Shown here: positions 17,556 through 44,059 of the stretch, piece after piece
Numbering within the stretch: the first letter of the stretch is position 1
Layout of the letters: each line of letters starts with the position of its first letter
Source of the DNA: Pegea sp. RAD2-039
Lineage: Eukaryota; Chordata; Thaliacea; Salpida; Salpidae
Direction: 5' to 3'
Length of the DNA: 64,000 nucleotides
Assembly (NCBI GenBank): GCA_034620365.1
Contig: JAQGEQ010000016.1
Coordinates: 62,001-126,000 of the forward strand
Program-made: the position numbers and the translations under genes
Notes under the pieces: generated by a model
What the model was told of the DNA's origin: nothing
Seen by the model: the letters and a program-made list of their open reading frames with translations, nothing else
The model's database searches: none

Positions 17556-17559
17556 GGAA

Positions 17560-18193: not shown

Positions 18194-18204
18194 TAACTTA
18201 ACAT

Positions 18205-19480: not shown

Positions 19481-19634
19481 ATAGATAAAACAGATATCTT
19501 CTAAAAAAACAAACAAATACTAATTTAACATTTTATTTATTTCTTCACGAACTTAATATAATTTCGAGATATTTGCAAAATCATCTTTACATTGAAGATC
19601 TTACAAACAATGATAACTTTTCAGCGGTGAAAAT

Positions 19635-21911
19635 TTAAGGAGGAGTAAGATTAGGTGGAGGTTCAGTTGTTGAACCAACTAATAGATGATGCATGAGCTC
19701 ATAGGATGGAGCCGTAAATCTTCTGTTTGTTGGATTGGGTAATGGGTAGGGTGGTTGTTGACCATGAAAATAGTGACGAGGGAGGACTGGTACACAGTGA
19801 GTATATGCTTCACCATGAGTTTTGTCAGAAGATGACCCAGTAAAAGAATCTGGTGCTTGATGCAAATCAGTATAGGCATTCGAAAATACTTCAAGCGGTT
19901 TGTCTGGTAACGAAAATTGCCTAAATGGACTTACACTACTAGACATTCTGGTTTGTGGTCGGACCATTTGACCAGCTCTGAAACCAGATTGTCTTACACC
20001 AGAAACCATACTGGGCTCGGAGCTACGCGTTAGTTCAAAACTTGGACTAGAAAGTGAACCAAGCCTATATCCAAATGATGAGCTCGATGGGCCAGAGAAG
20101 GAACCTCGATTACAGCCATTGAATGGACTTAATGTAAATCTTGGGCTAAATTTCGGACCATACATAGGGTCATATCTTGGACCATACATAGGGTCATATC
20201 TAGGACCATACATAGGGTCAAATCTAGCACCATAAGAGAAGTCAGAAGGCTCATTAAGGTCTGGACCTGAATTAGGGACAGCAAATTGAGAAATCCAGGA
20301 ACTGCACCCTGTTAATTCACTACCTTCCTGGCTAGCTTCAATTCGAGTTGTTTTCACAGACTGCATTAATTTAGTAAAATATTAATTTTGTCTAAAATAA
20401 ATAAAACCCGATCAGTACCTGGAAGGCTGTTGAAAAAGATGGAAGCTTGCAGCATTTTCTTTTACCTACAAAAAGTAAAATACAACATGATGATTAAAAA
20501 TACTTCTTGTTCATGAAACAATTATATTACTCAACAAAAAATCTTGTCTAGAACAAATTACAATTTTATTGAAAAGTTGTTAGCTATTTCTATTTACTTT
20601 ACCTTTTTGGCTTAAGTCAATTACAGGATAACTTTTAAACTGTTCAGTCTCCTTTTCTGCTGCTGGTTCTTCACCCTGCAAGATATCACGTTATTACTTA
20701 TTTTGAAAACTTAATTTTTACATCAGAAGTTGTTAAAAGTAAATGCTTGAAAAGTAAAACATCAACTTTAAATAATATATGATTAAATTGATAATTGTGT
20801 ATAATGTTATAGGTGATGCCTTAATTTAGTTACTTACTTCAGGAATCAATAATTTATTTATTGATTCTGTTGCCCTTTCAAGATTCATTTGTGCTCTTGG
20901 ACCTTTTGTAGTTATTACTACATGCATGGGTTTATCAGATTCAACATAATAATCGAGCATCTGAAAAAAAATTCGGAGTTAATTAACTAATTTTAATTTT
21001 GTTAAAAAAGAAAATATGCGCCAAGCTCGTAATCTTCAGAAGCTGATAACTCTTCAACCATAAAATTTTAGCTTTAGATTATTCATATAGTATTTTTTAT
21101 ATATAAAAAAACTAGATTATCATTCTTTATATTTCCAAAGATTAATCGAATTACATAATCGTAAATGACCTTTATATGATTATTAAAGAATCTTTTTCCA
21201 TGAATTCTGATCTCACAACACGTTTCGTTTTCAATCTTGTTTATCATACATCCGTTTTGCCCGGTAATCCGTTCGACAAAGTTGCACTGAACAACACTTT
21301 TATTTATCAAGTGAATTTAAACATGTTTTACAAACAATAATTATTTATGAAACTAGTCGCTGAATGAAATTTTATATAAAATTATTACACAATTTTTCTT
21401 AAGTTATATATTTGATATTAATCTATATTTGTATGTAACTGAAAAATTATGAATATTTGATTGTTGTTTTTTGTCTGTTGAGCTAATATTTCAGTAAAAC
21501 TTTCGTTAACACTTACTAATTCATCTTTCATTGTTGGTAGAAGAATGTTCTTTACTAAGACTGTAGTTTCTTCAGGGTTTGAAAAGCATTCATGTCTATT
21601 TGCTGATGGAACATTTTTATCATTTTCCGCAGCTATCTTCATTTCTTCTATAATTCCTACAACAGAATTTTAAATTATTTCTAAGCATTCAACAAATTGA
21701 TAAGTTAATAAGATTCAAGAGTTGCTTCTGCTTAAATTCATGATTTATAATTACTGTAAAATTTAAAAATATAAATTAGGAAAAACTAACTTTCTCTCAC
21801 GGCTGTCTTGGCTCGGAAGAGAAATTTTTCTTGAAGTATGTCTTCAGCCTGTAACAGCTCCTTTATTAATATTTTTTGTTCGTCAATCGCAGGTTGGGAA
21901 TCAGCAAACAT
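19635..21911 (-). CDS. STAR/KH-domain RNA-binding protein, copy A
   Basis: Seven exons on the minus strand: 21791-21911, 21517-21656, 21155-21286, 20838-20960, 20603-20675, 20419-20465 and 19635-20360, about 453 aa, all GT-AG and in frame. Exon 3 carries the KH core CNFVERITGQNG, with the GxxG loop as GQNG, then EIRIHGKRF. Exon 4 carries LHVVITTKGP-type strand sequence (here PMHVVITTKGP) and the helix ATESINKLLIPE. These match the KH of STAR proteins (QKI/GLD-1/Sam68 group), which bind single-stranded RNA. Exon 2 ends with the short lead VLVKNILLPTMKDEL, like the strand before STAR KH domains. The C-terminus has three DPMYGPR repeats and is rich in Ser, Gly, Tyr and Pro. The start is the first ATG in the frame, with an in-frame stop just upstream. 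The KH is clear; the exact STAR subfamily is not. Confidence 0.85.
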
Positions 21912-22444
21912 TTTTTATAAATCTTTTGTTTCCTGTAAAGTTGAAAATTAGTTTTACTAAAATACTTTTCATTAAGAATTGAAAGGATTTACTAACTTAA
22001 GATTTGTATACTTAGAGTAATCAAATACTTCCTTATAAGGCATTTTAAAGTATTTCAATAGATTTCAATTAGTTTCTTTAAGTAAATTATCAATTATTTA
22101 ACTTTTATTATTTATCTAACACGTTTTCTGTAGTCTTTTATAACTTATTATATCACAAAGTTTTATAAAAATTGTATTATAAGAAACACACTTATGTTTT
22201 ATATTTATTATATATGCATAATATATATTTACTAATGAAAACAACACCATTTTTTAATTTATAATTTGTAATGATAATTTGGATACTCATCAATTTTTCT
22301 AAGAAATGGTTGCTGTAAAGCTTTTATTTACTATCCAAGTTTAGTTTACTTTATAGTTAGTTCATTAATTAAATTGGTTATAAATGTTTATCATTAACTA
22401 TAAACAATTGCTTAAAATTATACCTAAATAAAAATTTTAAATAT

Positions 22445-23740
22445 TTATTCATAAGTTTCAAAAGAATATTCAAAGCTTTAAATGAACACGAAGTTCAAAG
22501 TTTTAAGTAAAAAAAAAGTATAATAACTTAAGAAATTAATGTTTGTAAAGTTCATATATAAAATAATTACTAATATAATTCATTTTAATTTGTAAATATG
22601 TTCTATCAAATAAATTAAAATAATAATTATACTAATTAATAAATTAATAATTAAACTAAATACAAACTTAATAACTAAATTAATTAATAAATTAATAATC
22701 AAATTAATTATAACAAGTAATTAAAATACACCCAGATTACTGAAAAAAGTTATAAATCATTGTAATGCAAGTCACATGACTAGACTAACTGCATGAATAG
22801 TTATAAAACTTTTCTTAATTTTTCTAAATTATTTCATTAATGTAATTTGGTTTACGAAATATACTTTTAGCTTTACTTTTTAGTTCTAGAAGTATTACAA
22901 AATTACAAAACTAAACTGTTTAGTTTTATTATTATAATTACATAAAAGAATCCTTTATTTAGTAAAATTCAGTCAAATAAAACAGTTTATTAACTTAATA
23001 ATTGATTTTTTGCAACCATCAGTCAAAGTATATGACAAAAAGTCTGATTTATACTTTAAAATGCCCAAATCGTTTGAATTTTGATTAAAAAATGAATAAT
23101 TTCCTCAAATTAACTTCACATTTTAACACCTTTGGCAACAAAGAAGGTTTAACAATTTTTATATTAATAATTATCAAACACTATTCAATTAAAAAACTTT
23201 AAATTGCAAATAACATGATCAGACTAACTGCATGAATAGTTATAAAACTTTTTTTAATTTTTCTAAATCATTTAGTTAATGTAATTTGGTTTACGAAATC
23301 TACTTTCAGCTTTACTTTTTAGTTCTGAATGTATTACAAAATTAACAAAACTTAGACTTCTTAGTTCTATTATTATAATTACATAAAAGAATTTTTTATC
23401 TAATTATTAAGTTTATTATATTATTATCATTATATTATTTTATTTATATTTAAAGAAAACAATTTGTAAATATACTTGGCTGATGCAAGAGATACAACTC
23501 AATGATCTGCAGATAAAAATGAAGATGATATTATCATTTGTCAGTTGACTCACTTTGTGTTCGAAAATGCTCTGAAAAACCTTCTGAATACAAAATTTAG
23601 TTGAAGGATTAAGAAGAAGAGTTAAAGGAAATGAAAAAGGACAGAAAAGAGTTGAAAGAAAAGCTTGAAATTGCTAAAAAAGAAGGTTTATAAATAGATA
23701 AGATGCTGATGTAAATTGTAAGTCAGGGTTTCCAACTATT
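22445..23740. repeat. right arm of inverted repeat around STAR gene A
   Basis: Reverse-complement partner of 18205-19480. It also recurs in units B (33950-35220) and C (38640-39900). Near 23590-23700 a short frame reads a Lys/Glu-rich helix (EEELKEMKKDRKELKEKLE) ending in GL and a stop. It is preceded in all copies by an in-frame TAA, so it may be a decayed coding exon. Confidence 0.75.
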
Positions 23741-24361
23741 TTATATTTAAACGTTCAAACTGTTTAATAAACACTACTAAAGAAATGAATGAACAATGGA
23801 ATATTAATTCATTAAACTTTGACAGTCGGTTTCAAATCAACAAACACAGCTCTTGGAACATACAACCAAGATAGTTTAACAATTTTCAAGTAAAACAATT
23901 CCTACTTTAACTACGAGACTTATGGTGCTTTTAACTACTAAACTTATAGTTTTTGTGTTTGCTATAAGAGCTGTATAATTTATTGTTTTCAGCTATGTGT
24001 TAAATAAATAAAATGCAATTTAACCCTACGAAATTTAACAAATTTGGTTTAAAATATATCTTAAAACCTATTTACTCAACAAAAGGTTTTTGATATCTGT
24101 ATTTAAAATTCATCTGTTGGTAGATTTCAAGATTTAAGTTTTTATCACCAAATGCTTTTTCTCCTAATTGAAAGAATATTAATTCTAGCTTGTAATTAAA
24201 AAAAATATGGGACTTTTAATTTATCTCTTATTTGTTAGCAATAATTGATTTAATACGAAAAAACTAACTGCTAGTTCAACAGGAAATTAATTTAGGAAAT
24301 ATACAGTTTAATAGTAAGTAGTGACAGTTTAAATGAAGTTCTGAACCAAGTCAATATTAAA

Positions 24362-24478
24362 TTTAACCAACCAGTCACCAACTAACCAATCAGCAATCAA
24401 CCAATCAGCAATCAACCAATCAGCAATCAACCAATCAGCAATCAACCAATCAGCAACCAACCAATCAGCAATCAACGT
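24362..24478. repeat. 15-bp CCAAT minisatellite, short array (~8 units)
   Basis: Tandem units of AACCAATCAGCAATC, each carrying CCAAT. It lies about 2.5 kb upstream of the STAR gene A start. The same position in unit C holds about 33 units (37523-38015). Confidence 0.9.
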
Positions 24479-24699
24479 ACATCTGTCTGATTTTTGTTTG
24501 AAGCTTCAAAATTTTGCTGAAAAAACGAGATAAACAACCAGAACAAAAATAGATTACGTCATCACAATTACAGATATATTTTTCACTCGAATCGACATTA
24601 TATTTTATCACTATGTCATCATACTTCAAAGAGTTATCATCACTAGAAAGGCTATTGTAAATCGCGATATCTTATGATGTCATCACTGCAGACAAGTTT

Positions 24700-24765
24700 T
24701 CAACACTCGGGTATGACGTCACACTTTCGTTTGTAGCTAGATATTACTGGATGTGACGTCATAAG
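24700..24765. promoter_or_regulatory. paired TGACGTCA (CRE-like) palindromes
   Basis: Exact TGACGTCA octamers at 24714-24721 and 24754-24761, separated by 32 bp. The pair is kept in the related segments near 28415-28465 and 37235-37285. It matches the CREB/ATF consensus; function here is inferred only. Confidence 0.4.
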
Positions 24766-25607
24766 CTAATGGGCGTCTTCTCATTGGGTATTTGAGAAAA
24801 CATCTTAACTTTAGTGTCTTGACCAATTATTTGGTAGAAAAGAAAGTGACATGTTGATTGTTTGTACGTGATACAATTGAAATATTTTACCGGAAATGTA
24901 TTGAATCTAAATATTGAATGAACTACATTCATTTAATCATTGACTTGTTGGTAAAAACATCGTATCGTTAGTACGTTCATCATTTCGATAGACGCCTTAT
25001 TTAATTGACTAAAGCTTATATAAAGAGTCATTTTAAATAAAAAAATTTGCAGACTTAACTTAAACATTAACTTCCAACTATTTAAAAAGCAATACACGAA
25101 CTTAATACCAGAAAATAAAGCAGTTTGTCATGGAAGACCTTATCATACACCTTGGCATGAAAGAGTTTCTGGAATACGGTCACAACAAAAAAGTCATAAC
25201 AATTAAGTGTTTGAATTAAGAAGTTAACAAGAGAAGTTAGTAGGGGGCATATGTACACATTCGGTTCAGTTGCAAAAGCAAATGTACATATTTATTATTT
25301 GTTAACTTTCAATCTGGTTGGAGACCAGTCAGTACCAAGTCTAAACGATAGAATAGGAGGACCGTATATTTGATGGACAGTTATGAATAGAGTAAGGCTG
25401 GTACAGTGAAACCAAACAATAGTTCATAAACAGCTTAATGTGTAATAGTCATAAATTGAGGATTGTATGACAGACAAGCTATTGCCTAAATTCAAAAAAG
25501 GAAGCTTCTTTGTTATTCTTGATTGAAGATATGGTTAATAAACAACCAAAATAAACAAAATATAAGTTTCTTACTTTTCATCAGTTGAAGCTAGCTTAAA
25601 ACACAAT

Positions 25608-27600
25608 TTATTTATTACAATAAATGTGAAGGAGAAAGCACCTCTCGCTAACTCACATTCTCACAACTAACATCTATTTAGTCAAAAATATAGAAAGTAA
25701 AAGATGTAACACATGGCATTTTAGTAGTCCTCAAAGCATATAACAGTGAACAATTACATGGAATGCTAATAATAACAAAGGGGGGAAAATCACAGTTTAG
25801 AAATGACAATGTTGGTAATATTATAACGGTTCAACTTCTGCTTGAACAACGCGAGCGACTTCGACATGACAATGTCTGATAACAGTTTGTTCCAAGTAAC
25901 AAATGTAAGGAATAAGAAAACATTTGCTCTGATTAATGTACCTGGTGATATGGGCTTATTAAGATGTAATGTGTGTCGTCTGAACAGCTATAACTTGAGG
26001 GAAGGAGTAATGAGAATAAAATCATCAAACTGAAGCTCAATTAAATTTTGGATAATTTTAAAAATAAGAATTAAGTCGTGTTTAATTTGTCGGATTTCCA
26101 AAGTATCTAAATTGAAGAGACTGAGACGATGTTTATAACTATCATATTTAATATTAAGTTTCCTGCATACTAATCTCGTAAATGTGGCCTGAACAGATTC
26201 AGTTTTTTGATATCACTAACTTGATATGGCATCCATGTACTAATATCGTATTCAAGAATTGGACGTACGTACAATTTGAAAAGATTGATAAAAAAGCATG
26301 GGTTCTTAGAATTAAAGGTCTTTATAAAAAGGTAGATTGGGTTGATTGATTTTGCAAAGATTTTGGAATTATAATTGTGCCATTTAATGTCAGATGATAG
26401 AGTAATGCCAAGGTCTAGGACCGAAGATACTCGTTGAATAATAAATCCATTGATGGAGTATTGGTTCAAGCAATTTAAAACTGGTTTACGAGAAAAGGTT
26501 ATAAGTTAAGACTTTGTGGGCTGGATTCTGAGCTGCCAATTCGACGACCAGTTTTCTACAGTGTGTAGTGCAGTTTGAAGTTTTGAAGGATTACAAGATA
26601 ATAGCTTGATGTCATCTGCATACACAAACACTCTGACATCATCGACTGCTACTAATTTTCTAATGAGGTCTTCGATGAAAATTAAAATGAGAAGGGCACC
26701 TAGAACAGAACCCTGAGGAACACCACTGGTGATTTGATTAGGAGTAAATAAAGATCTTCTTACACGAGCTTGTTAGGTTCTACCTGATAAGTAATCTTCA
26801 ATCCACTGTAAGATATAGCTTTCAATATTTACGTTTTTCAATACAGTAACGAGCTTACTGTGTTGGACATTATCGAAGGCTTTAGCGACATCGAGAAACA
26901 TGATGTCACAGGGAGTGTTACTTTCATAATGGGCTGTAAGCTCATTAAGAAAAGTGAGATGTTGAGTCAGGGAAGATCTCCGTTTCACAAAGTCATGCTG
27001 GACAGCATATATTAGATGGTGCTCCATCAAATGACTGGTCATATGATTGTAAATGAAATGTTTTTGAGTTCTGCAGATAACTGAAGTCAGCGAAACTGGT
27101 CTGTAGTTAAGTGCGGTGTTTCTGGTACCCCCTTTTTCTAAAAATCAAAACTGGGATTTGATCTGGGGTGTTGGAAAATGATACTTTTAAACAAGAATTA
27201 GCCTTAGCTACTATATCGACCGTTATGTCAGGATCTGTCATCTCAGAGACATTTGTAAAAATGTTGGAGTAGGAAAGAGAAGGAGTATTGCCCTGATGGG
27301 CTATAAAAACGCTATTAAATTGATTGTTTAGCAATTCAGCTTTATTCTTTGGTTCCATCGCAAGCTGGTTGCTGTTATCAAGTAAGGGAGGTATTTGAGA
27401 TCTCGCCTCAAGCTTGTGATTTATGAAACTAAAAAACGTTTTCTTGCTAAGAAAAAACAGAACTTACACTTTCTCTTCTTAAATAGAAATTAGAAATAGA
27501 TTTCTTGTATATTATACAAAGATGTTTGTACAGAGATTTGATGGAAGGGTCTGTTTTAGTTTGTTTGTTTAGGAGATTTTTCAAATGTTGTAAATTCCTT
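25608..27600 (-). mobile_element. CR1/Jockey-like LINE, ~2 kb 5'-truncated copy
   Basis: This copy reads on the minus strand from the endonuclease-RT linker near 27600 to the 3' tail at 25608. Visible RT marks are FVKRRSSLTQH, then DIMFLDVAKAFDNVQH and IEDYLSGRT (27042-26773), the GVPQGSVLG motif and YADD near 26700-26620, and the C-terminal MPYQVSDIKKL and YVRPILEYD segments (26469-26170). The ORF is split by frameshifts and stops, so it is inactive. The end of the unit A duplication (25870) falls inside this LINE. Confidence 0.9.
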
Positions 27601-28144
27601 AAATATCTGGGAACATGTGGCTACTTATTGGCTGGATAAGAAATTAAGTTTTTCAATTTACTTTATTTATTGATTTTAGTAAACCTTAAGTAAATAGTAA
27701 TGATGTCTTTGGAAGAGTTGAAAACGAAAATCAGTCAACATCTGATAGAAACTAACCAATTTCCACGATAAAAAATCTATTTGGTTGGAGTTTAAGCATA
27801 TATGAAAAAGTTTGTAAAAGTTTGAATTCAGTCATGTTGTGATTGCATGTCGGTGTAAAACGTTCTTATTGATCAACGTAGATAATTCTCGGGTGTTAGT
27901 AAAAAAATGATTTATCCTAGATATATGGATAGTTAATGGCATCTTCCTTATTTCTAGAAATTAACATCTGCAAGCAATATTTGATAATAGTATTGGATAG
28001 ATTTTAATCATACTTAAGTAATGATACATACCATAGATACAATAAGTAGAGAAATAGTTTACGGGAGTTAGGGTTGAGTTTTATGTCGAAAAATTAGAGT
28101 ATTTCAATGAATGACGACTGAAATATTGAAAAAGGATAAAAAAA

Positions 28145-28935
28145 TAAACCAATCAGCAACCAGCATCTCAGCAACCAACGTACATCTGTCTGATCTTTGT
28201 TTGAAGCTGCAAAATTTTGCTGAAGAAACGAGATAAACAACCAGAACAAAAATAGATTACGTCATCACAATTGTAGATATCTTTTTCACTCGAAGCAACG
28301 TTATCTTTTATCACTATGTCATCATACTTAAAAGAGTTATCATCACTAGAAAAGTTATTGTAAATGGCGATATCTTATGATGTCATAACTACTAACAAGT
28401 TTTCAATATTCGGCTATGACGTCACACTTTCGTTTGTAGCTAGATATTACTAGATGTGACGTCATAAGCTAATGGGGCGTCTTCTCATTGGGTATTTGAG
28501 ACAACATCTTAACTTTAGTGTCTTGACCAATTATTTGGTAGAAAAGAAAGTGACATTTTGATTGTTTGTACGTGATACAATCAAAATATTTTACCGGAAA
28601 TGTATTGAATCTAAATATTGAATGAACGACATTCATTTAATCATTTACTTGTTGGTAAAAACATCGTATCGTTAGTACGTTCATCATTTCGATAGAAGCC
28701 TTATTTAATTGACTAAAACTCTATATAAAGAGTCATTTTAAATAAAAAAATTTGCAGACTTAACTTAAACATTAACTTCCAACTATTTAAAAGCAATACA
28801 TGAACTTAGTACCAGAAAATAAAGCAGCCTGGTCATAGAAGACCTTGGCATAAAAGTCATACATATTGGTATAAAAGAGTTTCTGGAATACCGTCACTGC
28901 ATAAAAGTCACAACAAATATGTTTGAATTAAGAAG
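28145..28935. repeat. direct duplicate of 24460-25215
   Basis: About 0.8 kb matching the segment right of the CCAAT array in unit A, in the same orientation. It includes two or three CCAAT-type units at its left edge, paired TGACGTCA sites near 28415-28465 and the CAAAATTTTGCTGAA block. It lies between two LINE fragments and carries no gene. Confidence 0.85.
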
Positions 28936-28944
28936 TTAATTAAA

Positions 28945-29930
28945 ACTTGAAATGATTGGTAAAAAAGCATAGATCGTTAAAATCTAAAGTCTTTATAATA
29001 AAATATACAAGGTTGATTGTTTTTCAAAGATTTTATAATTATAATTATGCCATTTAAAGTCAGATGATAGTGTAATGTCAAGGTCTAGGACCGAAGATAC
29101 TCGTTGAATAATAAATCTATTGATGGAGTATTGGTTCAAGCAATTTACAGCTGGTTTACAAGATAAAGTTATAAGTTCAGACGTTGTGGGCTGGATTCTG
29201 AGATGCCAATTCGTAGATCAGTTTCTACAGTCTGTAGTTTGAAGTTTTGAAGGAATACAAGATAATAGCTTGATATCATCTGCATACACAAACACACTAA
29301 CATCACCTACTGCTACTAGTCTTCTGGTGAGGTCTTTGATGAAATTTAAAAAGAAAAGAGAACCTAGAACAGAACTCTAAGGAGCACCACTAGTGATTTT
29401 ACTAGGAGTAGATAAGGATCTTTCTATAGGAGCTTGTTGGGTTCTACCTAATAACTAATCTGCAATCCACTGTAAGATGAAGCGGTTGATTTTTCAATTT
29501 TGTAAAACAATATTGAAATTACTATGTTGGACATAATCAAAAGCTTTAGCGACATCGAGATACATGATGTCACAAGGAGTATTACTTTCGTAATGGGCTG
29601 TAAGCTCTTTAAGAAAAGTGAAATGTTGAGTCAGGGAAGATCTCCGTTTCACAAAGCCATGTTGGATATCAGATATTAGATGGTGCTCCATCAAATGACT
29701 GGTAATATGATTGTGAATGATATGCTCTTGAGGTCTGCAGATTAATGTTTTATTTATGAAACTAAAAAACGTTTTCTTGCAAGGTGAAGATAAAACTGCA
29801 CTTTCTCTTCCTAAATAGAAATTAGAAATAGATTTCTTGTAAACTATACAAAGATCTTTGTACAGAGATTTGATGGAAGGGTCTGTTTTAGTTTCTTTGC
29901 ATATGAGGTTTTTTAATTGTTGTCTATCAA
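28945..29930 (-). mobile_element. CR1/Jockey-like LINE fragment (RT middle)
   Basis: Minus-strand RT relic parallel to 26340-27540. FVKRRSSLTQHFTFLKELTA and DIMYLDVAKAFDYVQHS are visible at 29694-29494, followed by the region up to the RT C-terminal third. It has several stops and lacks the 3' tail. The left end adjoins the 28145 duplicate and the right end adjoins the inverted arm that starts near 29960. Confidence 0.85.
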
Positions 29931-29959
29931 TATTGATAATGATTTCATGTTTGTTTTAT

Positions 29960-32900
29960 AGAGTATCTAGGTTTCATAGCTATCAAAGCTTTAAATAGTT
30001 TATAAAACTTGACTAATTTCTTAGTTTAAAACTTATAGATTTAAGAAAGCTATTGTATTCTATCTAGTTTATAGAAGAAACACTCAATGGTCAATATAAC
30101 CTCAATGTAATATGAATTTTGAAATATATTTCAATGAAATGAAATATATTTTTGAAATATTTTATAAATGGATAAAGATATATGGACAGTTAATGGCATC
30201 TTTTTGAATTCTAGAGATTAACATCTGCAAGCATTATTTGATAATAGCATTAGATAGATTTTAATCATACAAAAGTAAGGTTACATAGTATAGATACAAA
30301 ACTACAGAAGGAGTTTACGGGTTTTAGGTTGAAGATCTAGAGTTTAATGTGATTCTATAGAAGTAAAAATTGAGTATTTCAATGAATGACGACTGAAATA
30401 AGAGAAAAGGGTCAGCTTAAGAATACGCTGATGCATTTTGAAAGTCAAGATTTTGCACTCTAAGGACTTTCTAATGCAATATGCGTTATTTGCATATCAA
30501 TACAAGAAAAGTAATTTAAAAAGATTTTGAAATAGTCTATTGGGTAAACGAGGTTTGTTTCATAGAGTGTTATTAAAAAATGTCTATTACGGTAGTGTAT
30601 ACTATGTACCATTACTTATGTATGATTAAAATCTATCCAACCGCTATTGTCATGTCGAAGTCGCTCATATTGTTCAAAATGAAGTTGAACCGTTAAAAAA
30701 TGTCAAGTTTAGCCTGTTCCGGTAACTTGGAGACTTCTGTTAAGACTTCAGTTTTTATTAAATTGGTTATGAAGAGGGTTCTTTATGTTTAGATCTATAA
30801 TTTGATCAAAAAGATTAAAACAATTTAAAAAGATCTCTATGAAAAAAAGGACGTTTTTGATTTCATAAATTTTAACTACTTTTAATTGTTATTACTCCTA
30901 ATTGTTAATAAACATTTCTCCAGTCAACATTATAGGCTATTGATGAAATATTACTAGTAGCTATGAACACGTTTTAATTGATGTAACAGATTTCTTCAAA
31001 AAAAAAACAAACAAATACTAATTTAACATTTTATTTATTTCTTCACGAACTTAATATAATTTCGAGATATTTGCAAAATCATCTTTATATTGAATATCTT
31101 ACAAACAATGATAACTTTTCAGCGGTGAAAATTTAAGGAGGAGTAAGATTAGGTGGAGGTTCAGTTGTTGAGCCAACTAATAGATGATGCATGAGCTCAT
31201 AGGATGGAGCCGTAAATCTTCCGTTTGTTGGATTGGGTAATGCGTAGGGTGGTTGTGGACCATGAAAATAGTGACCAGGGAGGACTGGTACACAGTGAGT
31301 ATATGCTTCACCATGAGTTTTGTCAGAAGATGACCCAGTAAAAGAATCTGGTGCTTGATGCAAATCAGTATAGGCATTCGAAAATACTTCAAGCGGTTTG
31401 TCTGGTAACGAAAATTGCCTAAATGGACTTACACCACTAGACATTCTGGTTTGTTGTCGGACCATTTGACCAGCTCTGAAACCAGATTGTCTTACACCAG
31501 AAACCATACTGGGCTCGGAGCTACGTGTTAGTTCAAATCTTGGACTAGAAAGTGAACCAAGCCTATATCCAAATGATGAGCTCAATGGGCCAGAGAAGGA
31601 ACCTCGATTACAGCCATTGAATGGACTTAATGTAAATCTTGGGCTAAATTTCGGACCATACATAGGGTCATATCTTGGACCATACATAGGGTCATATCTA
31701 GGACCATACATAGGGTCAAATCTAGCACCATAAGAGAAGTCAGAAGGCTCATTAAGATCTGGGCCTGAATTAGGGACAGCAAATTGAGAAATCCAGGAAC
31801 TGCACCCTGTTAATTCACTACCTTCCTGGCTAGCTTCAATTCGAGTTGTTTTCACAGACTGCATTAAATTAGTAAAATATTAATTTTGTCTAAAATAAAT
31901 AAAACCCGATCAGTACCTGGAAGGCTGTTGAAAAAGATGGAAGCTTGCAGCATTTTCTTTTACCTACAAAAAGTAAAATACAACATGATGATTAAAAATA
32001 CTTCTTGTTCATGAAACAATTATATTACTCAACAAAAAATCTTGTCTAGAACAAATTACAATTTTATTGAAAAGTGGTTAGCTATTTCTATTTACTTTAC
32101 CTTTTTGGCTTAAGTCAATTACAGGATAAGTTTTAAAATGTTCAGTCTCCTTTTCTGCTGCTGGTTCTTCACCCTGCAAGATATCACGTTATTACTTATT
32201 TTGAAAACTTAATTTTTACATCAGAAGTTGTTAAAAGTAAATGCTTGAAAAGTAAAACATCAACTTTAAATAATATATGATTAAATTGATAATTGTGTAT
32301 AATGTTATAAGTGATGCCTTAATTTTGTTACTTACTTCAGGAATCAATAATTTATTTATTGATTCTGTTGCCCTGACAAGATTCATTTGTGCTCTTGGAC
32401 CTTTTGTAGTTATTACTACATGCATGGGTTTATCAGATTCAACATAATAATCGAGCATCTGAAAAAAAATTCCGAGTTAATTAACTAATTTTAATTTTGT
32501 TAAAAAAGAAAATATGCGCCAAGCTCGTAATCTTCAGAAGTTGATAACTCTTCAAACATAAAATTTTAGCTTTAGATCATTCATATAGTATTTTTTATAT
32601 ATAAAAAAATTAGATTATCATTTTTTATATTTCCAAAGATTAATCGAATTACATAAATGACCTTTATATGATTATTAAAGAATCTTTTTCCATGAATTCT
32701 GATCTCAGAACACGTTTCGTTTTCAATCTTTTGAATCATACATCCGTTTTGCCCGGTAATCCGTTCGACAAAGTTGCACTGAACAACACTTTTATTTATC
32801 AAGTGAATTTATACATGTTTTACAAATTATGATTGTTTATGAAACTAGTCGCTGAATGAAATTTTATATAAAATTATTACACAATTTTTCTTAAGTTATA

Positions 32901-35758
32901 TATTTGATTATAATCCATATTAGTATGTAACTGAAAAATTATGAATATTTGATTGTTGTTTTTTGTCTATTGAATTAATATTTCAGTAATACTTTCATTA
33001 ACACTTACTAATTCATCTTTCATTGTTGGTAGAAGAATGTTCTTTACTAAGACTGTAGTTTCTTCAGGGTTTGAAAAGCATTCATGTCTATTTGCTTCCG
33101 GAACATTTTTATCATTTTCCGCAGCTATCTTCATTTCTTCTACAATTCCTACAACAGAATTTTAAATTATTTCTAAGCATTCAACAAATTGATAAGTTAA
33201 TAAGATTCAAGAGTTGCTTCTGCTTAAATTCATGATTTATCATTACTGTAAAATTTAAAAATATAAATTAGGAAAAACTAACTTTCTCTCACGGCTGTCT
33301 TGGCTCGGAAGAGAAATTTTTCTTGAAGTATTTCTTCAGCCTGTAATAGCTCCTTTAATAATATTTTTTGTTCATCAATCGCAGGTTGGGAATCAGCAAA
33401 CATTTTTTATAAATCTTTTGTTTCCTGAAAAGTTGAAAATTAGTTTTACTAAAATACTTTTCATTAAGAATTGAAAGGATTTACTAACTTAAGATTTGTA
33501 TACTTAGAGTAATCAAATACTTCCTTATAAGGCATTTTAAAGTATTTCAATAGATTTCAATTAGTTTCTTTAAGTAAATTATCAATTATTTAACTTTTAT
33601 TATTTATCTAACACGTTTTCTGTAGTCTTTTATAACTTATTATATCACAAAGTTTTATAAAAATTGTATTATAAGAAACACACTTATGTTTTATATTTAT
33701 TATATATACATAATATATATTTACTAATGAAAATAGCACCATTTTTTAATTTATAATTTGTAATGATAATTTGGTTATTCATCAATTTTTCTAAGAAATG
33801 GTTGTTGTTAAGCTTTTATTTACTATCCAAGTTTAGTTTACTTTATAGTTAGTTCATTAATTAAATTGGTTATAAATGTTTATCATTAACTATAAACAAA
33901 TGCTTAAAATTATACCTAAATAAAAATTTTAAATATTTATTCATAAGTTTTAAAAGAATATTCAAAGCTCCAAATGAACACGAAGTTCAAAGTTTTAAGT
34001 AAAAAAAAAGTATAATAACTTTAGATATTAATGTTTGTAAAGTTCAAATATAAAATAATTACTAATATAATTCATTTTAATTTGTAAATATGTTCCATCA
34101 AATAAATTAAAATAATAATTATACTAATTAACAAATTAATATGTAAACTAAATACAAACTTAATAACTAAATTAATTAATAAATTAATAATCAAATTAAT
34201 TAAAACAAGTAATTAAAATACACCCAGATTACTGAAAAAAAATATAAATCATTGTAATGCAAGTCACATGACTAGACTAACTGCATGAATAGTTATAAAA
34301 CTTTTCTAAATTTTTCTAAATTATTTCATTAATGTAATTTGGTTTACGAAATATACTTTTAGCTTTACTTTTTAGTTCTAGAAGTATTACAAAATTACAA
34401 AACTAAAGTGTTCAGTTTTATTATTATAATTACATAAAAGAATCCTTTATTTAGTAAAATTCAGTCAAATAAAAACATTTTATTAACTTAATAATTGATT
34501 TTTTTGCAACCATCAGTCAAAGTATATGACAAAAAGTCTGATTTATACTTTAAAATGCCCAAATCGTTTGAATTTTTATTAAAAAACGAATAATTGCCTT
34601 AAATTAGCTTCACATTTTAACAACTTTGGCAACAAAGAAGGTTTAACAATTTTTATATTAATAATTATCAAACACTATTCAATTAAAAAACTTTAAATTG
34701 CAAATAACATGATCAGACTAACTGCATGAATATTTATACAACTTTTTTTAATTTTTCTAAATCATTTAGTTAATGTAATTTGGTTTACGAAATCTACTTT
34801 CAGCTTTACTTTTTAGTTCTAGAAGTATTACAAAATTAACAAAACTTAGACTTCTTAGTTCTATTATTATAATTACATAAAAGAAGTTTTTATCTAATTA
34901 TTCAGTTCATTATATTATTATCATTATATTATTTTATTTATATTTAAAGAAAACAATTTGTAAATATACTTGGCTGATGCAAGAGATACAACTCAATGAT
35001 CTGCAGATAAAAATGAAGATGATATTATCATTTGTCAGTTGACTCACTTTGTGTTCGAAAAATGCTCTGAAAATCCTTCTGAATACAAAATTTAGTTGAA
35101 GGATTAAGAAGAAGAGTTAGAGGAAATGAAAAAGGACAGAAAAGAGTTGAAAGAAAAGCTTGAAACTGCTAAAAAAGAAGGTTTATAAATAGATAAAATG
35201 CTGAATTGAGTAAATTGTAATCAGGGTTTCCAACTACTTTATATTTAAACGTTCAAACTGTATAATGAACACTACTAAAGAAATGAATGAACAATGGAAT
35301 ATTAATTCATTAAACTTTGACAGTCGGTTTCAAATCAACAAACACAGCTCTTGGAACATACAACCAAGATAGTTTAACAATTTTCAAGTAAAACAATTCC
35401 TACTTTAACTACGAGACTTATGGTGCTTATAACTACTAAACTTATAGTTTTTGTGTTTGCAATAAGAGCTCTGTACTTTATTGTTTTCAGCTATGCGTTA
35501 AATAAAAAAAAATGCAATTTAACCAAACAAATTTGTCAACTTTGGTTTATAATATATCTTAAAACCTATTTTCTCAACAAAACGTTTGCAATTTATCTGT
35601 TCGTCGATTTCAAGTTTTAAGTTTTTATTACCTGGTGATAAAAACCTGGTGATTTTTATCAAATGGTTTTTCCCTAATTGAAAGAATATTAATTCTAGTT
35701 TGAAATTAAAAAAAATTTGGGACTTTTAATTTATCTCTTATCTGTTAGCAACAATTTA
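29960..35758. repeat. inverted repeat arm B (partner 38118-43905)
   Basis: About 5.8 kb repeated as its reverse complement at 38118-43905, with a ~2.36-kb spacer, so B and C form an imperfect palindrome. It includes a ~340-bp block (30318-30660), STAR gene B and its upstream region. The arm ends before the CCAAT array present upstream of A and C. Confidence 0.85.
31133..33403 (-). CDS. STAR/KH-domain RNA-binding protein, copy B
   Basis: Paralogue of copies A and C with the same seven-exon structure on the minus strand. The start is 33403 and the last exon is 31133-31858; the protein is about 451 aa. The KH exon keeps CNFVERITGQNG, and the next exon keeps PMHVVITTKGPRAQMNL. A 6-bp in-frame deletion removes two residues at the end of the KH exon but keeps the GT donor. 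Over the 242-residue last exon I count about 8 amino-acid differences from copy A, and no stop or frameshift. All splice sites look intact, so I annotate it as functional. The CCAAT array found upstream of A and C is missing, so its regulation could differ. Confidence 0.83.
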
Positions 35759-35779
35759 ATACTGATTAACGAAATTAAT

Positions 35780-36125
35780 TAAGAGTTTACGGGTTTTAGG
35801 GTTGAGGATCTAGAGTTTAATGTGATTCTATAGATGTAAAAATTGAGTATTTCAATGAATGACGACTGAAATAATAGAAAAGGATCAGCTTAAGAATACG
35901 CTGATGCATTTTGAAAGTCAAGATTTTGCACTCTAAGGACTTTCCAATGCAATATGCATTATTTGCATATCAATACAAGAAAAGTAATTTAAAAAGATTT
36001 TGAAATAGTCTATTGGGTAAAAGAGGTTTGTTTCATAGAGTGTTATTAAAAAATGTATATTACGGTAGTATATACTATGTACCATTACTTATGTATGATT
36101 AAAATCTATCCAACAGCTATTGCCA
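35780..36125. repeat. extra copy of the ~340-bp block at the spacer edge
   Basis: Direct copy of 30318-30660, which also recurs inverted at about 43195-43560. Landmarks are GAGTTTACGGGTTTTAGG and ATGCATTTTGAAAGTCAAGA. All three copies end at LINE sequence (CATGTCGAAGTCGCTC), so STAR gene B is bracketed by direct repeats of this block. Confidence 0.8.
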
Positions 36126-36390
36126 TGTCGAAGTCGCTCGCGTTGTTCAAAATTAAGTTGAACCGTTTTAATGTTACCAACACTGTCATTTCTAAACTGT
36201 GATTTTTTCTCTTTCTTATATTATCAGTATTCTATGTAATTTTTCACTGTTATATGCTTTGAGGACTACTGAAATGTCATGTGTTCCATCTTTTACTTTC
36301 TATATTTTTGACTAAATAGATGTTAGTTGTGAGAATGTGTGTTAGCGAGAGGTGCTTTCTCCTTCACATTTATTGTAATAAATAAATTTG
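36122..36390 (+). mobile_element. LINE 3'-end fragment
   Basis: Plus-strand LINE 3' end from the CATGTCGAAGTCGCTCGCGT block of the terminal ORF to the TTGTGAGAATGTGTGTTAGC tail and CATTTATTGTAATAAATAAA. It is the inverted counterpart of 25608-25870. The tail hairpin is shortened: GGTGC is present but the GCACC arm is deleted, as at 25608. Confidence 0.85.
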
Positions 36391-37522
36391 GTTGTAAGCT
36401 AGCTTAAACTGATGAAAAGTAAGAAACTTATATTTTGTTTATTGTTGTTGTTGTTTATTAACCATATCTTCAATCAATAATAACAAAGAAGATTCCCTTT
36501 TTAAATTTAGTCAATAGCTTGTCTGTCAAACAATCCTCAATTTATGACTATTACACATTAAGCTGTTTATGAACTATTGTTTGGTTTCACTGTACCAGCC
36601 TTACTCTATTCATAACTGTCCATCAAATATACGGTCCTCCTTTTCTATCGTTTAGACTTGGTACTGACTGGTCTCCAACCAGATTGAAAGTTAACAAATA
36701 ATAAATATGTACATTTGTTTTTGCATCTGAACCGAATGTGTACATATGCCCCCTACTAACTTCTCTTGTTAACTTCTTAATTCAAACACATAATTGTTAT
36801 GACTTTTTTTTTGTGACCGTATTCCAGAAACTCTTTTATGCCAAGGTGTATGCCAAGGTCTTCCATGACAAACTGCTTTATTTTCTGGTACTAAGTTCGT
36901 GTATTGCTTTTTAAATAGTTGGAAGTTAATGTTTAAGTTATGTCTGCAAATTCTTTGTATTTAAAATGATTCCTTATATAGAGTTTTAGTCAATTAAATA
37001 AGGCTTCTATCGAAACGATGAACGTACTAACGATACGATGTTTTTACCAACAAGTCAATGATTAAATGAATGTAGTTCATTCAATATTTAGATTCAATAC
37101 ATTTCCGGTAAAATATTTCAATTGTATCACGTACAAACAATCAACATGTCACTTTCTTTTCTACCAAATAATTGGTCAAGACACTAAAGTTAAGATGTTT
37201 TCTCAAATACCCAATGAGAAGACGCCCATTAGCTTATGACGTCACATCCAGTAATATCTAGCTACAAACGAAAGTGTGACGTCATACCCGAGTGTTGAAA
37301 ACTTGTCTGCAGTGATGACATCATAAGATATCGCGATTTACAATAACCTTTCTAGTGATGATAACTCTTTTAAGTATGATGACATAGTGATAAAAGATAA
37401 TGTCGATTCGAGTGAAAAATATATCTATAATTGTGATGACGTAATCTATTTTTGTTCTGGTTGTTTATCTCCTTTCTTCAGCAAAATTTTGAAGCTTCAA
37501 ATAAAGAACAGACAGATGTACG

Positions 37523-38015
37523 TTGATTGCTGATTGGTTGGTTGCTGATTGGTTGGTTGCTGAATGGTTGGCTGCTGAGAGGTTGGTTACTGATTGGTTG
37601 ATTGCTGATTGGTTGGTTGCTGAAAGGTTGGTTACTGATTGGTTGATTGCTGATTGGTTGATTGCTGATTGGTTGGTTGCTGATTGGTTGAATGCTGATT
37701 TGTTGGCTGTTGAGAGGTTGGTTATTGATTGGTTGATTGCTGAGAGGTTGGTTGCTGATTGGTTGATTGCTGATTGCTGATTGGTTGGTTGCTGAGAGGT
37801 TGGTTGCTGATTGGTTGATTGCTGATTGGTTGGTTACTCAGAGGTTGGTTGCTGGTTGGTTGATTGCTGATTGGTTGGTTGCTGATTGGTTGGTTGCCGA
37901 TTGGTTGATTGCTGATTGGTTGGTTGCTGATTGGTTGGTTGCTGATTGGTTGATTGCTGATTGGTTGATTGCTGGTTGGTTAGTTGGTGACTGGTTGGTT
38001 AAATTTAATATTGAC
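37523..38015. repeat. 15-bp CCAAT minisatellite, expanded array (~33 units)
   Basis: Units of the GATTGGTTGGTTGCT type, the reverse complement of the 24362 array, each with ATTGG (CCAAT on the other strand). Variants GAGAGGTTGG and GAATGGTTGG recur at intervals. It lies about 2.4 kb upstream of the STAR gene C start. Frames of 85 and 89 codons across it are repeat artefacts. Confidence 0.95.
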
Positions 38016-40317
38016 TTGGTTCAGAACTTCATTTAAACTGTAACTACTTACTTTTAAACTGTAAATTTCCTAAATTATCTTCCTGTTGAACTAGCAGTTA
38101 GTTTTTTCGTATTAAATCAATTATTGCTAACAAATAAGAGATAAATTACAAGTCCCATATTTTTTTTAATTACAAGCTAGAATTAATATTCTTTCAATTA
38201 GGAGAAAAAGCATTTGGTGATAAAAACTTAAATCTTGAAATCTACCAACAGATGAATTTTAAATACAGATATCAAAAACCTTTTGTTGAGTAAATAGGTT
38301 TTAAGATATATTTTAAACCAAAGTTGACAAATTTCGTTGGGTTAAATTGCATTTTATTTATTTAACACATAGCTGAAAACAATAAATTATACAGCTCTTA
38401 TAGCAAACACAAAAACTATAAGTTTAGTAGTTAAAAGCACCATAATTCTCGTAGTTAAAGTAGGAATTGTTTTACTTGAAAATTGTTAAACTATCTTGGT
38501 TGTATGTTCCAAGAGCTGTGTTTGTTGATTTGAAACCCACTGTCAAAGTTTAATGAATTAATATTCCATTGTTCATTCATTTCTTTAGTAGTGTTTATTA
38601 AACAGTTTGAACGTTTAAATATAAAATAGTTGGAAACCCTGACATACAATTTACATCAGCATTTTATCTATTTATAAACCTTCTTTTTTGGCAATTTCAA
38701 GCTTTTCTTTCAACTCTTTTCTGTCCTTTTTCGTTTCCTCTAACTCTTCTTCTTAATCTTTCAACTAAATTTTGTATTCAGAAGGATTTTCAGAGCATTT
38801 TTCGAACACAAAGTGAGTCAACTGACAAATGATAATTTCATCTTCATTTTTATCTGCAGATCATTGAGTTGTATCTCTTGCATCAGCCAAGTATATTTAC
38901 AAATTGTTTTATTTAAATATAAATAAAATAATATAATGATAATAATATAATAAACTTAATAATTAGATAAAACCTTATTTTATGTAATTATAATAATAGA
39001 ACTAAGAAGTCTAAGTTTTGTTAATTTTGTAATACATTCAGAACTAAAAAGTAAAGCTGAAAGTAGATTTCGTAAACCAAATTACATTAACTAAATGATT
39101 TAGGAAAATTAAAAAAAGTTTTATAAATATTCATGCAGTTAGTCTGATCATGTTATTTGCAATTTAAAGTTTTTTAATTGAATAGTGTTTGATAATTATT
39201 AATATAAAAATTGTTAAACCTTCCTTGTTGCCAAAGGTGTTAAAATGTGAAGCTAATTTGAGGAAATTATTCGTTTTTTAATCAAAATTCAAACGATTTG
39301 GGCATTTTAAAGTATAAATCAGACTTTTTGTCATATACTTTGACTGATGGTTGCAAAAAATCAATTATTAAGTTAATAAAATGTTTTATTTGACTTAAAT
39401 TTACTAAATAAAGGATTCTTTTATGTAATTATAATAATAAAACTAAGCAGTTTAGTTTTGTAATTTTGTAATACTTCTAGAACTAAATTGTAAAGCTAAA
39501 AGTATATTTCGTAAACCAAGTTACATTAATGAAATAATTTAGAAAAATTAAAAACGTCTTATAATCATGCAGTTAGTCTAGTCATGTGACTTGCATTACA
39601 ATGATTTATAATTTTTTTCAGTAATCTGAGTGTATTTTCATTAGTTGTTATGAATAGTTTGATTATTAATTTATTAATTAATTAAATCTTTAGATAATTA
39701 ATTACTTTAATTTTTAATTTATTAATTTGTATAATTATTATTTTAATTTATTTGATAGAATATATTTACAAATTAAAATGAATTATATTAGTAATTATTT
39801 TATATATGAACTTTACAAACATTAATATCTAAAGTTATTATACTTTTTTTTTACTTAAAACTTTGAACTTCGTGTTCATTTAAAGCTTTGAATATTCTTT
39901 TGAAACTTATGAATAAGTATTTAAAATTTTTATTTAGGTATAATTTTAAGCATTTGTTTATAGTTAATGATAAACATTTATAACCAATTTAATTAATGAA
40001 CTAACTATAAAGTAAACTAAACTTGGATAGTAAATAAAAGCTTTACAGCAACCATTTCTTAGAAAAATTGATGAGTAACCAAATTATCATTACAAATTAT
40101 AAATAAAAAAATGGTGCTGTTTTCATTAGTAAATATATATTATGCATATATAATAAATATAAAACATATGTGTGTTTCTTATAATACAATTTTTATAAAA
40201 CTTTGTGATATAATAAGTTATAAAAGACTACAGAAAACGTGTTAGATAAATAATAAAAGTTAAATAATTGATAATTTACTTAAAGAAACTAATTGAAATC
40301 TATTGAAATACTTTAAA

Positions 40318-40364
40318 ATGCCTTATAAGGAAGTATGTGATTACTCTAAGTATACAAATCTTAA
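40318..40364 (+). promoter_or_regulatory. probable 5' non-coding exon with upstream ORF (STAR C)
   Basis: An ATG at 40318 opens MPYKEVCDYSKYTNL and meets a GTTAGT donor at 40365. A TTTTACAG acceptor ends at 40428, 22 bases before the main ATG. If these are joined, the upstream frame overlaps the start of the main ORF in a different frame. The same arrangement is present in copies A (near 22043) and B (near 33535). Expression and splicing of this exon are inferred. Confidence 0.4.
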
Positions 40365-40449
40365 GTTAGTAAATCCTTTCAATTCTTAATGAAAAGTATT
40401 TTAGTAAAACTAATTTTCAATTTTACAGGAAACAAAAGATTTATAAAAA

Positions 40450-42727
40450 ATGTTTGCTGATTCCCAACCTGCGATTGATGAACAAAAAATATTATTAAAG
40501 GAGCTATTACAGGCTGAAGAAATACTTCAAAATAAGTTTCTCTTCCGAGCCAAGACAGCTGTGAGAGAAAGTTAGTTTTTCCTAATTTATATTTTTAATT
40601 TTTACAGTAATGATAAATCATGAATTTAAGCAGAAGCAACTCTTAAATTTTATTAACTTATCAATTTGTTGAATGCTTAGAAATAATTTAAAATTCTGTT
40701 GTAGGAATTATAGAAGAAATGAAGATAGCTGCGGAAAATGATAAAAATGTTCCGGAAGCAAATAGACATGAATGCTTTTCAAACCCTGAAGAAACTACAG
40801 TCTTAGTAAAGAACATTCTTCTACCAACAATGAAAGATGAATTAGTAAGTGTTAATGAAAGCATTACTGAAATATTAATTCAATAGACAAAAAACAACAA
40901 TCAAATATTCATAATTTCTCAGTTACATACTAATATAGATTAATATCAAATATAAAACTTAAGAAAAATTTTGTAATAATTTTTTATAAAATTTCATTCA
41001 GCGACTAGTTTCATAAACAATCATAGTTTGTAAAACATGTTTAAATTCACTTGATAAATAAAAGTGTTGTTCAGTGCAACTTTGTCGAACGGATTACCGG
41101 GCAAAACGGATGTATGATAAAAAAGATTGAAAACAAAACGTGTTCTGAGATCAGAATTCATGGAAAAAGATTCTTTAATAATCACATAAAGGTCATTTAC
41201 GATTATGTAATTCGATTAATCTTTGGAAATATACAAAACGATAATCTAGTTTTTTTATATATAAAAAATACTATATGAATGATCTAAAGCTAAAATTTTA
41301 TGTTTGAAGAGTTATCAACTTCTGAAGATTACGAGCTTGGCGCATATTTTCTTTTTTAACAAAATTAAAATTGGTTAATTAACTCCGAATTTTTTTTTCA
41401 GATGCTCGATTATTATGTTGAATCTGATAAACCCTTGCATGTAGTAATAACTACAAAAGGTCCAAGAGCACAAATGAATCTTGACAGGGCAACAGAATCA
41501 ATAAATAAATTGTTGATTCCTGAAGTAAGTAACAAAATTAAGGCATCACCTATAACATTATACACAATTATCAATTTAATCATATATTATTTAAAGTTGA
41601 TGTTTTACTTTTCAAGCATTTACTTTTAACAACTTCGGATGTATAAATTAAGTTTTCAAAATAAGTAATAACGTGATATCTTGCAGGGTGAAGAACCAGC
41701 AGCAGAAAAGGAGACTGAACAGTTTAAAACTTATCCTGTAATTGACCTAAGCCAAAAAGGTAAAGTAAATAGAAATAGCTAACAACTTTTCAATAAAATT
41801 GTAATTTGTTCTAGACAAGATTTTTTGTTGAGTAATATAATTGTTTCATGAACAAGAAGTATTTTTAATCATCATGTTGTATTTTACTTTTTGTAGGTAA
41901 AAGAAAATGCTGCAAGCTTCCATCTTTTTCAACAGCCTTCCAGGTACTGATCGGGTTTTATTTATTTTAGACAAAATTAATATTTTACTAAATTAATGCA
42001 GTCTGTGAAAACAACTCGAATTGAAGCTAGCCAGGAAGGTAGTGAATTAACAGGGTGCAGTTCCTGGATTTCTCAATTTGCTGTCCCTAATTCAGGCCCA
42101 GACCTTAATGAGCCTTCTGACTTCTCTTATGGTGCTAGATTTGACCCTATGTATGGTCCTAGATATGACCCTATGTATGGTCCACGATATGACCCTATGT
42201 ATGGTCCGAAATTTAGCCCAAGATTTACATTAAGTCCATTCAATGGCTGTAATCGACAATATTTCTCTGGTCCATCGAGCTCATCATTTGGTTATGGGCT
42301 TGGTTCACTTTACAGTCCAAGATTTGAACTAACACGTAGCTCCGAGCCCAGTATGGTTTCTGGTGTAAGACAATCTGGTTTCAGAGCTGGTCAAATGGTC
42401 CGACCACAAACCAGAATGTCTAGTGGTGTAAGTCCATTTAGGCAATTTTCGTTACCAGACAAACCGCTTGAAGTATTTTCGAATGCCTATACTGATTTGC
42501 ATCAAGCACCAGATTCTTTTACTGGGTCATCTTCTGACAAAACTCATGGTGAAGCATATACTCACTGTGTACCAGTCCTCCCTGGTCACTATTTTCATGG
42601 TCAACAACCACCCTACCCATTACCCAATCCAACAAACGGAAGATTTACGGCTCCATCCTATGAGCTCATGCATCATCTATTAGTTGGTTCAACAACTGAA
42701 CCTCCACCTAATCTTACTCCTCCTTAA
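40450..42727 (+). CDS. STAR/KH-domain RNA-binding protein, copy C
   Basis: Seven in-frame exons: 40450-40570, 40705-40844, 41075-41206, 41402-41524, 41687-41759, 41897-41943 and 42002-42727, about 453 aa. Residues 1-87 are charged helices that may correspond to a QUA1-like dimerisation region. Residues 88-172 form the KH/STAR core: CNFVERITGQNG, EIRIHGKRF, then PLHVVITTKGP and INKLLIPE. The C-terminal ~240 residues are low-complexity, with three DPMYGPR repeats and a Pro-rich end. The last exon begins with SVKTTRIEA just after an AATGCAG acceptor, so the ATG at 41996 is intronic. STAR proteins bind RNA and control splicing, stability or translation; the target here is unknown. It differs from A by about 8 residues in the last exon. 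Confidence 0.85.
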
Positions 42728-44059
42728 ATTTTCACCGCTGAAAAGTTATCATTGTTTGTAAGATCTTCAATATAAAGATGATTTTAAATATCCCGAAATT
42801 ATATTAAGTTCGTGAAGAAATAAATAAAATGTTAAATTAATATTTGTTTGTTTTTTTTTAGAAGAAATCTGTTACATCAATTAAAACGTGTTCATAGCTA
42901 CTAGTAATATTTCATCAATAGCCTATAATGTTGACTGGAGAAACGTTTATTAACAATTAGGAGTAATAACAATTAAAAGTAGTTAAAATTTATGAAATCA
43001 AATACCTCCTTTTTTTCATAGAGATCTTTTTAAATTGTTTAATCTTTTTGATCAAATTAGAGATCTGAACATAAAGAACCCTCTTCGTAACCAATTTAAT
43101 AAAAACTGATGTCTTAACAGAAGTCTCCAAGTTACCGGAACAGGCTAAACTTGACATTTTTTAACGGTTCAACTTCATTTTGAACAACGCGAGCGACTTC
43201 GACATGGCAATAGCTGTTGGATAGATTTTAATCATACATAAGTAATGGTACATAGTATATACTACCGTAATAGACATTTTTTAATAACACTTTATGAAAC
43301 AAACCTCTTTTACCCAATAGACTATTTCAAAATCTTTTTAAATTACTTTTCTTGTATTGATATGCAAATAACGCATATTGCATTAGAAAGTCCTTAGAGT
43401 GCAAAATCTTGACTTTCAAAATGCATCAGCGTATTCTTAAGCTGATCCTTTTGTCTTATTTCAGTCGTCATTCATTGAAATACTCAATTTATACTTCTAT
43501 AGAATCACATTAAACTCTAGATCTTCAACCCTAAAACCCGTAAACTCCTTCTGTAGTTTTGTATCTATACTATGTACCCTTACTTTTGTATGAATAAGAT
43601 CTATCTAATGCTATTATCAAATAATGTTTGCAGATGTTAATCTCTAGAATTCAAAAAGATGCCATTAACTGTCCATATATCTTTATCCATTTATGAAATA
43701 TTTCAAAAATATATTTCATTTCATTGAAATCTATTTCAAAATTCATATTTCATTGAGGTTATATTGACCATCGAGTGTTTCTTCTATAAACTAGATAGAC
43801 TAAATCTGTTACAATAGCTTTCTTAAATCTATAAGTTTTAAACTAAGAAATTAGTCAAGTTTTATAAACTATTTAAAGCTTAGCTAGCTATAAAACCTAC
43901 ATATATAAAAACATTAACTATGTTGATCAAAAAAAATGCTTTGCTTTGACATGCAATCACAATATGATTGAATTTAAACTTTTTTATGAACATTTAAACT
44001 TCAAGCAAAAGGAATTTTTATCGTAAAAATTAATAAGTTTTTATCAGGTGTTGACTGGA

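Follow-up and report, generated by a model that had tools for sequence, protein, structure and literature searches.

The window analysed here is a stretch of 64,000 bases (62001-126000) of a contig of 146,569 bases, designated C279; other contigs of the assembly are labelled in the same manner (C18, C79 and so on). The genome searched, 105.7 Mb in 387 contigs, is small, AT-rich and animal-like. The window contains three copies of a gene with a KH domain, designated A, B and C, and further repeated features (Table 1). The gene models were built on C and transferred to A and B via alignment. Each copy has seven exons of 121, 140, 117, 123, 73, 47 and 726 bp, giving a coding sequence of 1,347 bp, i.e., 448 codons without an internal stop. 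All six introns are bounded by GT and AG in A, B and C, and also in a fourth copy, D, located on C79. These models agree with the original prediction of three seven-exon copies with their splice sites and frames kept. The last-exon proteins, predicted to be about 3% apart, differed at 8 of 241 residues (3.3%) in each of the three pairs, and the whole proteins of 448 residues differed at 17 (A-B), 18 (A-C) and 15 (B-C) positions, leaving 431, 430 and 433 identical residues, respectively (96.0-96.7%). In all four copies, an acceptor-like site ends 21 bases 5' of the start codon, and AATAAA, a polyadenylation-type signal, lies 3' of the stop codon. The acceptor-like site makes a 5' leader exon or a trans-spliced leader likely in this gene.

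Table 1. Gene copies, duplicated units and repeat pieces in the window (window coordinates)
Feature	Position	Strand	Remarks
Upstream-region fragments left of unit A	18346..19176	.	78-96% to units; also match D upstream flank
Duplicated unit A	19478..25873	-	Inverted match to C 36119-42884, split into two blocks
Copy A, 448 aa	19635..21911	-	Exons 21791-21911, 21517-21656, 21170-21286, 20838-20960, 20603-20675, 20419-20465, 19635-20360
LINE-like piece adjoining unit A	25885..27886	-	89% to 43913-45894
Extra upstream-region copy	28143..28939	.	Direct repeat of 24440-25227, 91.8%
LINE-like piece adjoining unit B	28941..29742	-	86% to 44705-45514
Palindrome arm B	29954..35756	-	95.3% to 38119-43910 (5,838 alignment columns, gaps counted)
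Copy B, 448 aa	31133..33403	-	Exons 33283-33403, 33009-33148, 32662-32778, 32336-32458, 32101-32173, 31917-31963, 31133-31858
Spacer, 2,362 bp	35757..38118	.	Between arms B and C
Spacer: repeated 3'-flank piece	35783-36167		Self-comparison
Spacer: piece also at 52311-52587	36119-36387		Self-comparison; probably a LINE end
Spacer: upstream piece common to A	36769-37634		Self-comparison
Spacer: minisatellite	about 37522-38000		Self-comparison
Palindrome arm C	38119..43910	+	Self-comparison
Copy C, 448 aa	40450..42727	+	Exons 40450-40570, 40705-40844, 41075-41191, 41402-41524, 41687-41759, 41897-41943, 42002-42727
LINE-like piece starting 3 bases past the end of arm C	43913..45894	+	DNA relative of 25885-27886

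Comparison of the window with itself placed the three genes in longer duplicated units, each of which comprises the whole gene and about 2.3 kb of upstream sequence. The units of B and C form the arms of the palindrome. Unit A matched C in the inverted orientation over 6.4-6.8 kb overall, in blocks of 5.0 kb (19478-24476 versus 42884-37889, 96.8%) and 1.5 kb (24364-25873 versus 37634-36119, 95.1%), and it matched B directly (19478-24246 versus 30974-35756, 95.9%). Repeat matches of such length are far beyond chance. An imperfect B/C palindrome of about 5.8 kb with a spacer of about 2.36 kb, and 6.4-6.7 kb of inverted sharing between A and C, had been predicted; in the assembled sequence the first was found almost to the base, and the second at the length given above. 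The palindrome region as a whole is a patchwork of repeated pieces. The minisatellite in the spacer (37465-38000) is one of three, the others lying at 186-2800 and 15677-18223; they have a 15-bp spacing where measured and are open in several frames, and a similar-looking minisatellite is present near a Sam68-like gene on C278.

The proteins of C and D, which were the two scanned, each contain a single STAR-type KH domain (PF22675), with scores of 40.8 and 41.0 bits, respectively, against a cut-off of 30, covering positions 5-75 of 76. Residues 1-207 of C matched the solved structures 2bl5 (E 5.2e-7), which is named in the database only as MGC83862 protein and which we take to be frog Quaking, and Protein quaking, 4jvh (E 1.1e-6). 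Lower matches were obtained with GLD-1 (1.1e-4), KHDRBS3 (1.2e-4), KHDRBS1 (2.3e-4) and SF1 (2.8e-3). On the other hand, neither QUA1 nor STAR_dimer was matched, either by the whole proteins of C and D at E 1 or by residues 1-87 of each at E 5. As positive controls from the same genome, an exon on C278 matched Qua1 with 40.2 bits and an exon on C44 matched STAR_dimer with 34.2 bits; from their motifs, we take these genes to be Sam68-like and Quaking-like, respectively. Judging from the genome matches and the letters read, Quaking-, Sam68- and KHDC4-like genes are presumably all present in this genome. In the three alignments examined, the similarity to STAR proteins of solved structure stops at residues 172-178, and QUA2 was not recognised by this structure comparison.

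STAR proteins have the KH domain between Qua1 and Qua2, and Qua1 serves for dimerisation except in SF1, as described in PMC4316625. Since the STAR-type KH domain is present and QUA1 was not found in C or D, the gene falls short of the full STAR definition. From the family to which it belongs, the KH domain would most likely bind single-stranded RNA, without dimerisation of the QUA1 type. ACUAAY-type RNA is the motif of STAR proteins. The gene resembles the GLD-1/How/Quaking clade in its STAR-type KH domain, with Quaking as the best named solved-structure match. It differs from the clade in that QUA1 was not found and QUA2 was not recognised, and in its long last exon with DPMYGPRY repeats; its KH loops are also 5 and 2 residues shorter than those of Quaking in the alignment.

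A genome search with the C gene yielded four matches, all of which were scored as candidates: A, B, C and D (C79:114230-116609). Copy D is 85% identical to the C gene, and A, B and C are all about 85% identical to D. Its frame is open over 438 residues, with two in-frame length changes relative to the other three copies. When the protein of copy C was used as the query, 26 exons matched at E 1 or better, and all of them lie in A, B, C or D on C279 or C79. Upstream, 3'-flank and LINE-like pieces common with the window flank D in a different order, so that the unit was probably already ringed by repeated pieces before A, B and C were formed. The stretches read around KH matches on C203, C164, C18 and C250 look like other KH families. 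A KH-type frame recurs every ~4.94 kb, in three copies each, at C18:32725-42772 and C250:24289-34340, and KH fragments, many with stops, lie on C203, C164, C251, C363, C369, C370 and C373. Those on C203 occur in direct and inverted copies; the fragments read on C203 and C164 are presumably FUBP-like, and the fragments on C203 and the other contigs are probably an amplified, decaying family. Elsewhere in the genome, C125:284001-292000 contains broken rDNA in which the SSU, LSU and 5.8S pieces are unusually arranged, and a fuller rDNA unit was found on C27, where the LSU ends with the stretch read. A search for COX1 yielded no match.

The ungapped identity over the common unit was 96.8% for A-B, 97.1% for A-C and 96.3% for B-C. 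The dN/dS ratios were 0.63 (A-B), 0.38 (A-C) and 0.35 (B-C), and 0.53-0.61 against D. In neutral simulations using the mutation spectrum of non-coding DNA, the nonsynonymous changes between A and B (20 of 28) were not different from the neutral expectation (P = 0.21), and those of A-C (21 of 37, P = 0.0025) and B-C (17 of 31, P = 0.005) were fewer than expected. In the three pairs with D, nonsynonymous changes made up 141/200, 138/199 and 136/201, where a share of about 0.80 is expected without selection; for each pair, none of 400 simulations had a share as low, and all 400 gained a stop. Within the trio, no stop arose in 13-20% of the neutral simulations, which were given as many changes as the pair concerned, and therefore the open frames within the trio are weak evidence. 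The exons contain two indels per pair against D in the three pairs, none of which breaks the frame, as compared with 34 (A-D), 30 (B-D) and 34 (C-D) non-exon indels that are not multiples of three. Among A, B and C, 9 (A-B), 6 (A-C) and 11 (B-C) indels were counted outside the exons and none within them.

The divergence from D was 0.168-0.171 in exons, 0.109-0.129 in introns (0.131-0.143 without intron 2) and 0.175-0.187 upstream. This exon divergence, which is higher than that of the introns and slightly lower than that of the upstream region, suggests weak constraint or fast evolution. The dN/dS ratio of the KH stretch against D was 0.75-0.97, and 0.90-1.76 when the variable loop was left out, with few sites. 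The KH similarity between the trio and D was not accepted as proof of selection in itself, since divergence in that stretch is low at silent sites and in intron 2 as well. The simulations and the divergence against D indicate that the frame has been kept in the long term under weak constraint. Of the dN/dS tests proposed with the original prediction, the simulations detected constraint for A-C, B-C and the pairs with D, and none for A-B; purifying selection is weak, and undetectable between A and B.

Since the A-B changes match the neutral expectation, some copies may be drifting. In a rival explanation, one copy, or D alone, would be active and the others would be young copies on their way to pseudogenes. 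The stop-free share of the trio simulations fits this possibility, as do the similar exon and intron divergence among A, B and C and the presence of an adjoining 5'-truncated duplicate of another gene. However, no stop, frameshift, splice loss or exon indel was found in any of the three copies, and the deficits of nonsynonymous changes in A-C and B-C are not expected from drift, so we regard this explanation as unlikely, though it keeps some weight.

Sites that unite two copies, with the remaining copy carrying the base of D, numbered 22 for A+B, 24 for B+C and 9 for A+C. At the other variable sites, D went with the majority at 46, 22 and 40 sites and was different or gapped at 13, 10 and 46 sites, in the same order. 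No single tree fits the four copies. In run tests, which assume independent sites, the longest B-C run was 5 of 232 variable sites (permutation P = 0.124 with three copies and 0.457 with D), and A-B and A-C each had a run in the three-copy test that was matched by 0 of 5,000 shuffles. Two of the significant runs, one of A-C (C 38158-38313) and one of A-B (C 39652-39705), are located where one copy is only 84-88% identical to the others; they may therefore stem from a local rearrangement or from the alignment, and carry little weight. A further tract, at 40777-41121 in C coordinates, runs across intron 2 into KH exon 3. Here, A and D differ at 12 of 345 sites against a background of 14.4% (0/1000 permutations), and the tract of low divergence from D is shorter in C (6/210; 0/1000 permutations) and B (1/92; 7/1000). 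In intron 2, A-D differ at 10 of 230 sites, A-B and A-C at 14 each, B-D at 21 and C-D at 17. This closeness of A and D points to an older exchange of sequence between the gene on C79 and those on C279.

It had also been proposed that the palindrome resembles the germline gene families kept by gene conversion on some sex chromosomes. According to PMC11168930, the ape X/Y ampliconic genes are likewise open copies in inverted arms around a spacer, the palindromes have raised arm GC, and the ampliconic families are defined by a protein identity cut of 97% and at least two copies. The inverted open copies, some clustered common sites and the low-divergence tract of A and D are in line with such a family at our locus. 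In contrast to the ape genes as described there, the present arms (26.7 and 26.8% GC) are GC-poorer than the spacer (33.3%, or 30.8% in its part 35757-37460), they are just 95.3% identical including gaps, and B and C have no excess of sharing. None of the A/B/C pairs reached 97% protein identity. For arm-to-arm conversion between B and C, no signal was obtained from the run test or the unit identity, which is an absence of signal, not a proof of no exchange. Since B and C have the lowest identity of the three pairs across the unit, lack a long common run and have a low arm GC, maintenance by the palindrome is not supported, and we consider a conversion-maintained ampliconic family very improbable. 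What stands of the proposal is a recently amplified gene, presumably RNA-binding, with three open copies in direct and inverted order; the upkeep by conversion does not, and the exchange tract found was the older one of A and D.

The repeat pieces at 25885-27886, 28941-29742 and 43913-45894 are, in our assignment, presumably of the LINE class and of one family. A reverse transcriptase fragment was recognised at 26773-27144 (RVT_1, 46 bits; cut-off 29.6). The open frame 29494-29955 scored only 20.1 bits with RVT_1, below the cut-off, and the frame 45264-45728 had no Pfam match. Several other stretches of this contig part are also duplicated. Window positions 11202-15600 (98%), 9973-11205 (95%) and 8240-9877 (94%) have duplicates on C148, which include weaker blocks of 83-87% within 3910-15600, and 3910-6663 duplicates C279:39988-42743 (97%). 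A protein kinase fragment lies at 12917-13306 within these segmental duplicates. Window 47419-52176 is a 98% copy of C278:353759-358518. The C278 side carries an importin-beta-like gene with an open frame of at least 679 codons, and the copy of this gene in the window is 5'-truncated. The duplicated block has sharp ends, past which the collinearity does not continue in the 8 kb that were read. Two control stretches, C279:126001-136000 and 7.4 kb of C278, had no match over 400 bases except themselves. Several duplications are thus found in this contig part, the KH cluster among them. Beside the importin-like block there is a direct repeat (46003-47412 and 50768-52145, 93.8%), and five tRNA matches lie within 46007-51921, four in this repeat and a fifth (50425-50496) shortly ahead of the second repeat copy. 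Further along, the window has a 360-aa open frame at 54056-55138 (minus strand), which is rich in Cys and Trp and has no Pfam match at E 0.01, with what we take to be thrombospondin-like motifs, and a perfect TTTA-type tetranucleotide microsatellite, about 400 bp long, at 55874-56284.

The extra copies could also be an assembly artefact, in which alleles or haplotigs of a single locus were placed next to one another; a divergence of 2-3% falls within the allelic diversity of some invertebrates. The units differ in their ends and flanks, however, one of them is inverted with its own spacer, and the site patterns conflict along the unit. The importin-like neighbour is also duplicated with sharp ends, unlike a long haplotig; C278 as a long haplotig of C279 was rejected, as the 98% match ends after 4.8 kb. 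We thus give an assembly artefact little chance.

Taken together, a fast-evolving KH gene has probably undergone ordinary duplication, specific to its lineage, in a duplication-prone region, and we hold this reading with fair confidence. A Quaking-like STAR-type KH gene would have given rise to three recent copies in a region prone to segmental duplication, with D as a more distant relative. From their position at the unit ends, the LINE-like pieces most likely drove copy formation, in that recombination or template switching between them would produce both direct and inverted copies. The open frames would be held by weak purifying selection, and the copies would have exchanged short tracts now and then. 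The palindrome would then be a by-product of the inverted duplication rather than a means of holding the copies identical. The kep1 family, with nsr, of Drosophila offers a parallel in young, lineage-specific STAR-family duplicates, and a young duplicate in this wider family took a male germline role, according to PMC3009665. The present gene is nearest to Quaking among solved structures; kep1 groups with the Sam68-like STARs in PMC4316625. A bolder version, to which we assign a slim probability, is that the gene is a monomeric, QUA1-less derivative of the Quaking type that evolves fast and is repeatedly amplified, with exchange across contigs keeping the RNA-binding core alike while the tails diverge, possibly as a germline conflict gene.

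An inverted pair of open genes alone is no evidence for a conversion-maintained palindrome, and the locus clearly exemplifies how a KH-domain gene can be multiplied in both orientations without a proven sex-chromosome setting. If a germline role is true, the locus would offer a test of whether loss of the dimerisation domain and growth in copy number go together in this family.
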